DNA of 64,000 nucleotides from Chitinophagaceae bacterium (GTDB lineage: Bacteria > Bacteroidota > Bacteroidia > Chitinophagales > Chitinophagaceae). This document shows, piece after piece, positions 20,913 through 23,550 of the stretch. The stretch spans positions 1 to 64,000 of the forward strand of contig JAHEZD010000020.1 of NCBI GenBank assembly GCA_023251255.1. Reading direction: 5' to 3'. Under the pieces are notes generated by a model. It worked only from the letters and a program-made list of their open reading frames with translations, ran no database searches and was not told the DNA's origin. The position numbers and the translations under genes are program-made. Position 1 is the first letter of the stretch; each line of letters starts with the position of its first letter.

Positions 20913-21386
20913 CTATTCGGTAGTTGAAACCACAATATTCCTACTGAAGCTTTCTTCCAATGAAATTAATGTTTCCGTTCTTTCTATTCCTTTTATGTTC
21001 TGGAGTTTATCATGAAGCACCACCCTCAACTGCTGAATATCCTTGCAAACAATTTCTGCAAACATACTATAGTTGCCTGTAGTATAATTAACACGAACAA
21101 TTTCAGGTATCTTTTTTAAATCTTTTGCTACTGCATCGTATAAAGAACTTTTCTCCAAATAAATTCCAATAAAAGCAATTACATCATAGCCTAAAGCCTT
21201 TACATCTATGGATAACCTCCTACCTTTGACAACTTTTAGTTCTTCGAGTTTTTTGATGCGCACATGGATGGTACCGCCACTTACAAAAAGTTTCTTGCCT
21301 AAATCGGCGTAAGAAATCTCTGCATTTTCCATCATCTCCTGAATAATCTGTAAATCCAGTTTATCTAGATTAAATTTTGTAGGCAT
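20913..21386 (-). CDS. Lrp/AsnC-family regulator
   Basis: 157 aa from ATG 21386. The N-terminal HTH (LDKLDLQIIQEMMENAEISYADLGKKLFVSGGTIHVRIKKLEE) is followed by the RAM ligand domain (AFIGIYLEKSSLYDAVAKDLKKIPEIVRVNYTTGNYSMFAEIVC). It should assemble into octamers and respond to an amino acid. It is separated from the tRNA-like RNA by AT-rich DNA. Its targets are unknown. Confidence 0.88.
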   Translation of the reverse strand: MPTKFNLDKLDLQIIQEMMENAEISYADLGKKLFVSGGTIHVRIKKLEELKVVKGRRLSIDVKALGYDVIAFIGIYLEKSSLYDAVAKDLKKIPEIVRVNYTTGNYSMFAEIVCKDIQQLRVVLHDKLQNIKGIERTETLISLEESFSRNIVVSTTE

Positions 21387-21536
21387 ATTCAATGTGTTTT
21401 TGAATTTATTTTAAATAATAGTGCAATTTATTGAAATAAATCTATAATTTAAAAATTATTGTTGGAATATTTGCAACAAACAAGCCAATTACTTTAATAT
21501 TGCAATATCAAATAAACAAAGAATAGTTCTTTATAC

Positions 21537-21708
21537 TGTGGGGTGATGAAATTTTTGGCAGACATGCCCTCTTGTCTCGGGGGTGAGGATAACAGGATAA
21601 ACTTAGCATAGAGCCGTTTGGATAGCAATATTTGAACGACCAGGGTCGACCACTGAACTTTGTGCTTCTGCTAACTGCCTCGTGGAGGTTCGACCCCTCC
21701 CCCTACAG
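21537..21708 (+). ncRNA. tRNA-like RNA with a giant (about 100 nt) variable arm
   Basis: A full tRNA frame can be drawn. The 7-bp acceptor pairs TGTGGGG (21537-21543) with CCCTACA (21701-21707), including one G-U. U8 is at 21544. The D stem is ATG/CAT (21546-48, 21563-65), with A14 and a GG pair in the loop. The anticodon stem is CCCTC/GGGGG (21567-71, 21579-83) with loop TTGTCTC. The T stem is GGAGG/CCTCC (21684-88, 21696-700) with the canonical loop TTCGACC. G73 is at 21708 and CCA is not encoded. Between anticodon and T arms lie 100 nt, closed by GAGG/CCTC and containing TTAGCA/TGCTAA. A terminator follows. The anticodon would be GUC with G73, both Asp-like. tRNA-Sec and tmRNA do not fit. 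Confidence 0.55.
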
Positions 21709-21714
21709 CTTTAG

Positions 21715-21740
21715 GCCCCTGATAAATCAGGGGCTTTTTT
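21715..21740 (+). terminator. Intrinsic terminator of the tRNA-like RNA
   Basis: Arms GCCCCTGAT (21715-21723) and ATCAGGGGC (21726-21734) followed by six T. It ends the RNA at 21537, which argues that the RNA is transcribed as an independent unit. Confidence 0.85.
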
Positions 21741-21953: not shown

Positions 21954-22742
21954 TTAGCCTCTTTCAATCATTGCAGAAAGTTCCACTACTTTTCTTACTA
22001 TGCTGTCCAGCTCATTGCAAGATTCTTCCAAATACGGAAAGAGGTTGTCAGTGTCTGCATTTTTCTGTTTCTTCAGTAAATCGACCAGGCCCATAATATT
22101 GGCTAAAGGCTTGCGGAGTTCATGGGACTGAATCCAGGCAATTTCTTTTAATGTGCCCATCTGCTGCTTAATTTTATGCTCAGTCTTTATTTTCTGTGTT
22201 ACATCAATTCCAACAACCACTCTTGCTTTCTTGTTTTCGAATACAGTGGAATGTGAATAAACATGAATAAAATAGCTTTGGTCATTTTTTGATCGGTGTT
22301 CCCAAACACCAGAATCGGATTGTCTTGTATCGGCAGTATGATGAAAAAAAGCGGCATCGCTTGCAGATGCCTCTTTAGGCAGCAGGTCTGTTATCCTCAT
22401 TTTCCGAAACTCCTCCTGTGTATAGCCATATTTCTCAATTGCCATGTTATTAGCCATTAAGAAATAAAGTGAGTCCGTTGCATACACCCACATAATGTTC
22501 GGATTTTCGCTGAAAAGCTTCAGGTAATCTTGCTGTTTTTCCTGAATGACCTTGTTATAATGGCTCAGCAAAAGATACAAAAGAAATGAAGTGCACATAA
22601 CAAAGGCTGCTCCTTTCAGTGACTGGATTTTATTGATGACTGGTTGGGAAAAGGACTTCTCAAGGAGTGCATCGCTAGCATAAATCCAAATTAGCGCAAA
22701 TAGTAGATAGATGGAGGCTACTCTTAAGGGAAAGTTCTTCAT
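21954..22742 (-). CDS. Membrane PAS-HisKA protein lacking an ATPase domain
   Basis: 262 aa. Two membrane helices (IYLLFALIWIYASDALL; AAFVMCTSFLLYLLLSHY) are followed by a PAS domain (LFSENPNIMWVYATDSLYFLMANNMAIEKYGYTQEEF, then a PAC-like segment). The dimerisation/phosphotransfer helix carries the H-box AWIQSHELRKPLANIMGLVDLL. The protein then ends at VVELSAMIERG. No HATPase domain follows in any frame; the downstream DNA is the region of the tRNA-like RNA. It may be phosphorylated in trans, act as a phosphatase or heterodimerise. Such kinase-less forms exist in Bacteroidota, as I recall. Confidence 0.8.
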   Translation of the reverse strand: MKNFPLRVASIYLLFALIWIYASDALLEKSFSQPVINKIQSLKGAAFVMCTSFLLYLLLSHYNKVIQEKQQDYLKLFSENPNIMWVYATDSLYFLMANNMAIEKYGYTQEEFRKMRITDLLPKEASASDAAFFHHTADTRQSDSGVWEHRSKNDQSYFIHVYSHSTVFENKKARVVVGIDVTQKIKTEHKIKQQMGTLKEIAWIQSHELRKPLANIMGLVDLLKKQKNADTDNLFPYLEESCNELDSIVRKVVELSAMIERG

Positions 22743-22830
22743 TTATAGCTTGAGGTTAGGGCTTGACTATATACAACAATAACGGCGTTCCCATAAACTT
22801 ATTTCCCCAGCATAAAATATGCGTAGCGTA

Positions 22831-22838
22831 TATCTTTG
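22831..22838 (+). promoter_or_regulatory. -7 box upstream of trmB
   Basis: TATCTTTG exactly fits TAnnTTTG and ends 7 bp before the trmB ATG at 22846, so the mRNA may be nearly leaderless. No TTG is found at the expected -33 distance, so this is tentative. Confidence 0.45.
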
Positions 22839-22845
22839 CCAGCTT

Positions 22846-23550
22846 ATGGGACATAAGAAACTCATCCGTTTTGAAGAAATAAAAAAATTTGCCAATGTTT
22901 TGGAACATCCACAAAATATGAAGGGCAAATGGAATGATTTTTTCAAAAATGACAATAACATAACCCTTGAACTTGCTTGTGGTAAAGGCGAGTATGCAGT
23001 AGGCTTGGGCAGTATGTTTGCTGATAGGAACTTTATTGGTATTGACATTAAGGGTAACCGTATTTGGCGGGGGGCAAAAACGGCCATTGATAATGGATTA
23101 ATCAATGTGGCTTTTCTCCGTACAGAAATTGATGGTATTAACAACTATTTTGATAAGGATGAGGTAAGTGAAATATGGATTACATTCCCAGACCCTCAAC
23201 TCCGTTTGTCAAAAGCGAGGAAAAGATTGACACATCCCAAATTTTTGAGAATGTACCAACAGTTTCTAAAGCAGGATGGATTGGTCAATTTAAAAACAGA
23301 CAGTCCGGACCTATACAGGTTCACCAAAACTGTTATTCAGCTCTTCGATATTGAATGCCTAGTTGACTATGATGATGCTTATGCACAACTTGCCATTAGG
23401 GACGAACTTAGGATAAAGACCCATTACGAAAGCCTTGACATTGCCCAAAGCAGCCGTATACATTACCTGCAGTTCAAGTTGAACAAAGAACTGCCTGCTA
23501 TGTTGGATGAAAAGCTAAAACAAATCATCCATGAGCAGGCAAATGATTGA
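22846..23550 (+). CDS. trmB: tRNA (guanine-N7-)-methyltransferase
   Basis: 234 aa from ATG 22846, chosen because the upstream -7 box overlaps the longer frame. The SAM-binding motif is LELACGKGEYAVGLGSMF, followed by FIGIDIKGNRIWRGAKTA. The catalytic and tRNA-binding signature is WITFPDPQLRLSKARKRLTHPKFL, and LKTDSPDLYRFT lies in the C-terminal part. It makes m7G46 in the variable loop of tRNAs in the cytoplasm. It is the first of three overlapping genes (trmB, DUF5522, alkyltransferase-like). Confidence 0.93.
   Translation: MGHKKLIRFEEIKKFANVLEHPQNMKGKWNDFFKNDNNITLELACGKGEYAVGLGSMFADRNFIGIDIKGNRIWRGAKTAIDNGLINVAFLRTEIDGINNYFDKDEVSEIWITFPDPQLRLSKARKRLTHPKFLRMYQQFLKQDGLVNLKTDSPDLYRFTKTVIQLFDIECLVDYDDAYAQLAIRDELRIKTHYESLDIAQSSRIHYLQFKLNKELPAMLDEKLKQIIHEQAND

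Follow-up and report, generated by a model that had tools for sequence, protein, structure and literature searches.

The window, a stretch of 64,000 nucleotides from a Chitinophagaceae genome of 6.1 Mb in 188 contigs, carries on its plus strand a tRNA-like RNA whose predicted mature part, from U1 to C74, spans 21537-21709, as delimited by homologues and covariation. The acceptor stem TGTGGGG/CCCTACA (21537-21543/21701-21707), with U1 and G2 invariant on its 5′ strand, continues on its 3′ side into G73 (21708) and C74 (together 21701-21709), both likewise invariant. U8 stands at 21544 and was found by script in 222 of 222 copies. It is followed by a tRNA-Leu-like D arm (GGCAGAC; 21546-21565) with a 3-bp stem and GG in the loop; in an alignment of 25 homologues (A1), the length of this loop differs on the 5′ side of the GG. 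The anticodon arm (21567-21583) consists of the stem CCCTC/GGGGG and the loop TTGTCTC (21572-21578), in which G34, U35 and C36 occupy 21574-21576 and C38 lies at 21578. Exactly 100 nt (21584-21683), forming a structured variable arm, separate the anticodon stem from the T arm GGAGG-TTCGACC-CCTCC (21684-21700), whose stem covaries and whose loop begins with TTCGA in 218 of 222 copies. The CA of the 3′ end is presumably added after transcription; 14 of the 16 tRNA genes examined in the same genome also end at N73-C74, one encodes CC and one CCA. The first-pass annotation, made from the letters alone, had named the acceptor, U8, D-loop GG, anticodon loop, T arm and G73 as tRNA anchors, had counted the same 100 nt and had placed a terminator 3′ of the RNA, and all of these are present in the sequence.

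The transcription unit runs in the order promoter-like element, boxA-like leader, tRNA-like RNA and terminator. The candidate -7-like promoter element TAATATTG (21496-21503, plus strand) has one mismatch to TAnnTTTG, which we take to be the Bacteroidota -7 consensus, and, counted without a control set, 85 of 110 intergenic regions contain one or another loose promoter pattern at 25-75 nt upstream. The 5′ leader contains the sequence pattern AGTTCTTT (21525-21532, plus strand), presumably comparable to boxA; [AG]TTCTT[TA] recurs within 44 nt upstream of the RNA in 55 of the 110 regions, again counted without a control set. The intrinsic terminator, read from the sequence as a hairpin with a T run, occupies 21715-21740 on the plus strand, and by eye such hairpins stand 3′ of most of the 25 homologues.

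Divergent from the RNA, at a distance of about 150 bp, lies a gene for an AsnC-type regulator of the Lrp/AsnC family (20913-21386, minus strand; Pfam PF01037/PF13404), for which we use the ATG start; the listed open reading frame starts at a TTG at 21392. AsnC (PRK11179) is by far its best NCBIfam family, with 159.5 bits against 66.8 for the next and 54 for Lrp, although this score fails the equivalog cut-off of 227, and the protein is 41% identical to E. coli AsnC. In the intergenic region between asnC and the RNA (21387-21495), AT-rich TTGAAT-like repeats can be seen by eye, as in many homologues, and are perhaps a candidate AsnC operator. A palindromic operator was also considered and set aside, an inverted-repeat count made without a control set yielding no single clear motif. 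On the side away from the regulator, the unit is flanked by a short PAS/HisKA protein (21954-22742, minus strand), and the tRNA m7G46 methyltransferase TrmB is encoded at 22819-23550 on the plus strand (NCBIfam TrmB, 234.9 bits; cut-off 132).

Conserved fold and spread of the RNA family

A hand-written structure of 43 pairs, comprising the acceptor, D, anticodon and T arms and five helices of the variable arm, was tested on A1, a MAFFT alignment of 25 of the 30 BLAST loci (L023, whose contig ends inside the RNA, and the partial matches L027-L030 were omitted). In A1, 96.0% of the cells of this structure are paired, compared with 88.5% in shuffles and 41-53% when the structure is slid, and 17 pairs show two-sided change, a value reached in none of 500 shuffles. 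Across 84 distinct order-level sequences, whose alignment was fitted to the model, two-sided change affects 34 of the 43 pairs; within the acceptor, 1-72 and 2-71 are constant, and pairs 4-69 to 7-66 covary freely. An additional pair ahead of position 1 is broken in 11 of these 84 sequences, and we therefore retain a 7-bp acceptor with G73 in place of an 8-bp one. The minimum-free-energy fold of the single sequence has a z-score of -3.1 and differs from the conserved fold.

The variable arm measures 39-133 nt (median 89; 222 copies). Its basal stem (21585-21588/21678-21681), a second stem (21603-21610/21661-21668) and inner hairpins covary. The first-pass annotation had closed the arm with GAGG/CCTC and had paired TTAGCA with TGCTAA, a helix without covariation support: covariation instead pairs AGCATA (21605-21610) with TGTGCT (21661-21666) and leaves GCTAA (21670-21674) as one strand of an internal loop, opposite GATAAAC (21596-21602), both strands being strongly conserved in A1. 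This loop or a close variant occurs in most copies inspected, those with the shortest arms included, and few depart from it. The self-complementary inner hairpin loop GGTCGACC (21644-21651) is present in many long-arm copies; as GGTYGACC, it is found in nearly all A1 sequences and is absent from short-arm copies and from some long-arm ones.

What the locus encodes is a tRNA derivative: its variable arm is giant and structured, its anticodon and discriminator are Asp-like, and its D and T arms resemble those of tRNA-Leu. The Asp-like letters GUC and G73, pointed out at first reading, are invariant in the copies examined, and of the D arm then described as Leu/Ser-like it is the Leu-like character that stands, extending to the T arm. 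Compensatory changes in the arm stems of relatives, by which that reading had proposed to be judged, occur in both the 25- and the 84-sequence alignments, so that its reservation about homologues without such changes does not apply.

Standard tools pass over this RNA. ARAGORN and Rfam, applied to the window, call only a tRNA-Arg; Rfam RF00005 does not report the RNA, which lies outside the 51 tRNA matches of the genome; and at the locus itself no Rfam family exceeds its gathering score, a permissive scan giving sub-gathering matches only. BLAST matches were obtained in 32 of 59 genomes, that of the window counted. A covariance model (R1) built from 25 homologues finds the RNA in 168 of the 244 family genomes and 107 of the 198 order genomes, both counted by hand after dropping weak matches, of which five out of five checked (about 50 bits) are tRNA-Leu. 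The family count is 174 minus six genomes with such tRNA-Leu-weak matches (G028, G068, G130, G136, G189 and G264) and keeps G002, whose RNA is cut by the contig end; the order count is 128 minus 21 genomes of the same kind. Among genomes drawn from the class and the phylum, 26 of 149 and 14 of 148, respectively, contain the RNA at E ≤ 1e-14, in draws where some genomes recur. Filters were stricter in covariance searches that covered more than 40 genomes, so absence calls from these are provisional. In a pattern scan, the named genera with the RNA among the matches listed are Chitinophaga, Niastella, Segetibacter, Flavihumibacter and Terrimonas, together with Ferruginibacter, Sediminibacterium, Arachidicoccus, Thermoflavifilum and Saprospiraceae records, most of these named carriers being Chitinophagaceae.

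Further inspection covered 54 chosen loci, 63 others and 60 order-level loci picked by hand. Among the order-level loci, 13 of 60 hold two to five copies in tandem and 47 a single one. Copies with short and long arms stand side by side in tandem at L124, L014, L142, L147 and L177, where only the long form has the GGTYGACC-type hairpin, with a self-complementary loop in most. In the near relative G002 (G002:C2:636758-636828; L023, L329), the RNA runs off the end of its contig after 71 identical bases; tandem copies are perhaps behind this break.

Taken together, the spread and the covariation across relatives argue that the structure did not arise by chance, and that this is a conserved functional RNA is nearly certain. 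An ordinary tRNA or a pseudogene was rejected, as the RNA is far too widely conserved and has lost the letters needed for decoding. The family stands outside Rfam and the tRNA finders, and no prior account of it was found in the literature searched, which most subscription journals lay beyond.

AsnC linkage and co-occurrence with GatB

Among the A1 loci, 24 of 25 have the AsnC-type regulator divergent from the RNA, as do 72 of the 80 named loci; four of the eight named loci without it have fewer than 200 bases on that side. At the order level, outside the Chitinophagaceae, the linkage is found at 26 of 60 loci, distributed over the families f8 (17 of 17), f12 (5 of 7), f17 (1 of 1), f21 (2 of 2) and f22 (1 of 1); it is absent from the 32 loci of f18 (0 of 26) and f19 (0 of 6), where G052 and G053 carry AsnC elsewhere. 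The E. coli genes asnC and asnA are likewise divergent, with a gap of 151 bp, and AsnC is described as a regulator of asparagine biosynthesis (PMC2995911). The RNA occupies the place that asnA has beside E. coli asnC.

Other neighbours are less regular. A TrmB-like protein is encoded at 33 of 80 named loci, in 24 of them no more than 1.5 kb downstream of the RNA and on its strand. In genome G408 (f18), the RNA lies directly upstream of aspS; as this locus (seen as L083 and L411) is the single one at which AspRS adjoins the RNA among 92 loci searched, some of them overlapping, the linkage may be due to chance. Two other tRNA loci were noted in passing. The array at G000:C43:37230-38871 (L262) packs 15 tRNA genes tightly, among them several with low model scores and with anticodons that also occur elsewhere, and a second, very different tRNA-Asp; it may belong to a mobile element or a phage. 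At G000:C113:7120-7213 (L273), a 94-nt match to the tRNA model (48 bits), unreported by ARAGORN, has an enlarged anticodon region.

The presence of the RNA was compared with that of GatB, the GatCAB subunit searched. In 36 genomes of the family, RNA, AsnC and GatB are jointly present in 26 and jointly absent in the same 10; here AsnC was called at E ≤ 1e-30 and the RNA by BLAST (for the RNA-negative G001 and G009, two of the ten, by BLAST only), and the GatB match of G020, counted among the 26, is a fragment that scores below the cut-off. The naive probability of this co-occurrence is 4e-9 with descent ignored. On a tree of AsnRS and AspRS, the pattern needs about three changes, two of them on well-supported branches, so it represents clean but few joint events and does not amount to 36 independent cases; the tree comes from a quick search, has some long branches and includes G003, G004, G020, G021 and G033 with one protein only. 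In the order set, all seven RNA-positive genomes likewise have both GatB and AsnC, and the RNA-negative ones divide into 10 with and 6 without GatB. AsnC is present and the RNA was not detected in G037, G041 and G046 of this set; G037 also lacks GatB and has AsnA, and the G046 contig extends about 250 bases beyond the AsnC gene before it ends.

Enzymes that make or load asparagine were counted in the 59 genomes. AsnA occurs in four of them, one being RNA-positive (G053). AsnB-like proteins exceed the cut-off in 52, including 21 of the 26 RNA-positive family genomes, and a route through the RNA would therefore mostly not be the sole possible source of asparagine. Neither AsnA nor AsnB exceeds the cut-off in seven genomes, all seven with the RNA (p = 0.013, uncorrected for descent); among them, G026 and G030 are single-contig assemblies, G030 has a match below the cut-off and G051 is 83% complete. 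AsnRS exceeds the cut-off in 55 of the 59 genomes, the exceptions being G004, G020 and G049, which are 57-80% complete, and G003, where the gene is split over two contigs. With AsnRS nearly universal, GatCAB is not needed to charge tRNA-Asn.

Predicted identity elements for AspRS and GatCAB

G34, U35, C36 and C38 are invariant in 233 distinct copies (224 parsed by script, nine read by eye), as are U1-A72, G2-C71, G73 and C74 in the 231 copies with both ends (222 by script, nine by eye). Two of the 233 are cut by an end and carry no acceptor data, and matches shorter than 105 nt (L158) were omitted. Position 33 is T in 182, C in 34 and G in 8 of the 224 script-parsed copies, position 37 is T in 215, G in 6 and C in 3, the nine copies read by eye have T33 and T37, and position 32 also varies freely. 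In the D loop, GG is followed by CA in the 224 parsed copies, for which the script pattern required GGC, and by AA or TA in the nine others. If the residues after GG are numbered as in tRNA-Leu, a scheme that we assume to apply here, position 20a falls on the A and no U stands there.

A review (PMC9976931) gives G73, G34, U35, C36 and C38 as strong aspartate determinants and G2-C71 as a minor one, and describes G1-C72 as crucial for bacterial Asp identity, helping E. coli AspRS to place the acceptor end. According to the same source, U1-A72 confers amidation of Asp-tRNA-Asn by GatCAB, and amidation of tRNA-Asp is prevented by G1-C72 and U20a (PMC9976931). Set against these rules, the RNA has the complete determinant set G73/G34/U35/C36/C38 together with G2-C71 and lacks G1-C72, with U1-A72 instead in all 231 copies, and its charging with aspartate may therefore be weaker. 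U1-A72 is at the same time the mark for GatCAB, and both blocks to amidation, G1-C72 and U20a, are absent. In the same genome, the ordinary tRNA-Asp has G1-C72 and a GGTTA D loop, and tRNA-Asn has U1-A72.

As read from its letters, the RNA joins five AspRS determinants and the GatCAB mark in one molecule. We consider it likely that the RNA is a substrate of AspRS, and there is a reasonable expectation that GatCAB would act on it. Among the alignment rows listed, the AspRS proteins of genomes with and without the RNA show no sharp difference by eye. Compared with an elongator tRNA, the RNA has the acceptor, D, anticodon and T arms with U8, GG and a TTCRA loop, and it does not keep U33 or a purine at position 37.

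Candidate roles and comparison with known systems

From the fold, the invariant letters, the AsnC linkage and the co-occurrence, all of which are read directly in the sequences, we infer a course of events that includes charging, amidation, exclusion from the ribosome, release of asparagine and control by AsnC. The divergent AsnC-type regulator, responding to asparagine, would control transcription of the RNA and adjust it to the asparagine level. The transcript would fold like a tRNA, with Leu-type D and T arms and a long variable arm, and be processed and CCA-completed like other tRNAs. AspRS would then load it with aspartate, because it offers G34, U35, C36, C38, G73 and G2-C71, and GatCAB would amidate the bound aspartate, giving asparagine, because the RNA opens with U1-A72 where tRNA-Asp has G1-C72 and has no U at the presumed position 20a. 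The resulting Asn-RNA, which in translation would insert Asn at Asp codons, would be kept out of it, because the RNA retains neither U33 nor a purine 37 and has a very long variable arm. Released asparagine would finally serve AsnRS and metabolism.

With moderate confidence, we thus favour the RNA as a dedicated non-decoding carrier for tRNA-dependent asparagine formation; that asparagine supply is its purpose is held with the same confidence or slightly less. The release of asparagine and its rate are the weak step of this reading, as spontaneous ester hydrolysis seems too slow for bulk Asn supply. A tentative extension, which we would not expect to hold in full, is that Asn is discharged by the long arm and its conserved internal loop, alone or with a recruited hydrolase, making the RNA a reusable cofactor in the manner of acyl carrier protein. 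Equally tentatively, the RNA would then found a new class of metabolic carriers, being a purpose-built tRNA chimera with an Asp anticodon, an Asn-type first pair and a Leu-type body.

Signalling offers the next account of the same features. An RNA charged by AspRS, and perhaps amidated, could signal the supply of Asp or Asn either to mRNAs or to AsnC, much as a T-box would if it stood alone and worked in reverse. The divergent AsnC gene suits such a riboregulator, as do the conserved internal loop and the self-complementary hairpin loop of many long copies, which would be superfluous for a plain carrier; we nevertheless regard it as unlikely, since signalling alone explains neither the joint presence and absence with GatB nor the tandem arrays of up to five copies. 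The first-pass annotation had itself proposed a new tRNA-derived regulatory RNA, and its derivation from a tRNA is borne out, whereas the conserved letters, the AsnC neighbour and the GatB co-occurrence point to tRNA-dependent asparagine formation, a role absent from that annotation.

An RNA built not to decode could also pass Asn or Asp to a lipid, a peptide or a cell-wall precursor, and tRNAs do serve as donors in such non-ribosomal transfers. This we find distinctly improbable: inspection by eye of the 25 largest clusters of neighbours at 80 loci showed no aminoacyl transferase, a weak test in that only four window proteins were searched against family libraries, and AsnC is the sole general adjacent gene seen. 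The same identity letters and the long arm might alternatively let the RNA hold AspRS and GatCAB together as in a transamidosome, or soak up AspRS, with the RNA not being a substrate. A scaffold or decoy of this kind would be expected to tolerate change, and the strict conservation of G73, C74, 1-72 and 2-71 fits a substrate, which leaves it only a small chance.

Smaller still is the chance of a working, if odd, tRNA that inserts Asp or Asn at special codons or during stress mistranslation. It would account for the GUC anticodon and for U33 in 182 of 224 parsed copies, and is opposed by C33 or G33 in 42 of the 224, U37 in 215, an arm of up to 133 nt and the ordinary tRNA-Asp of the genome. Other known tRNA-like RNAs (tmRNA, bacterial Y RNA or the intron-bearing tRNA proposed at first reading), for which the general tRNA-like fold speaks, are very unlikely: a separate RF00023-type tmRNA gene lies elsewhere in the genome and not at this locus, no Rfam match exceeds the gathering score, and an intron is wrong or unsupported because the arm shows the covariation of a permanent stem and measures as little as 39 nt in some copies.

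If the carrier reading is true, it bears on a known puzzle, namely the retention of GatCAB in bacteria with both AsnRS and GlnRS, of which Table 2 of PMC4206432 lists 67 genera, 18 of them without AsnA/B and with Bacteroidetes named among these. That paper considers Asn synthesis on tRNA-Asn, makes no mention of a separate RNA in the sections consulted, and uses an E. coli auxotroph assay (PMC4206432). A carrier RNA with both AspRS and GatCAB marks beside AsnC could answer this puzzle for the Chitinophagaceae and related families, and opens a direct genetic test. It would mean that an amino acid is built on a non-decoding RNA, that sequence evolution reveals the identity rules of two enzymes, and that an RNA family lies beyond Rfam and the tRNA finders.

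Several known systems resemble parts of this picture. Like tmRNA, the RNA has tRNA-like ends enclosing extra RNA, but unlike tmRNA it has an anticodon arm and Asp letters. With class II tRNA-Leu it shares the D arm, the T arm and the long-arm layout, and model R1 weakly matches tRNA-Leu; it differs in G73 in place of A73, the Asp anticodon, the arm of 39-133 nt and U1-A72. The S. aureus tRNA-Gly used for cell-wall bridges is a non-translational tRNA and so likewise a tRNA-shaped RNA reserved for a non-translational reaction, but it is of ordinary size, and amino acid and pathway differ.

On the carrier reading, the system would work like the indirect Asn pathway of Deinococcus radiodurans, Thermus thermophilus and Bdellovibrio bacteriovorus, in which ND-AspRS and GatCAB act on tRNA-Asn (PMC4206432). 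Common to both are the U1-A72 mark, the presence of AsnRS alongside and, as predicted here, a dependence on AspRS and GatCAB. The carrier here, however, is a separate and apparently non-decoding RNA with GUC in 233 copies, Leu-type arms and a long arm, not tRNA-Asn with GUU, and an ordinary tRNA-Asn is present besides, which places the system outside the indirect asparagine pathway as defined. In gene arrangement, the nearest counterpart is E. coli asnC-asnA, where about 150 bp likewise separate an AsnC gene from a divergent partner; the E. coli partner is the enzyme asparagine synthetase A, whereas here it is an RNA.
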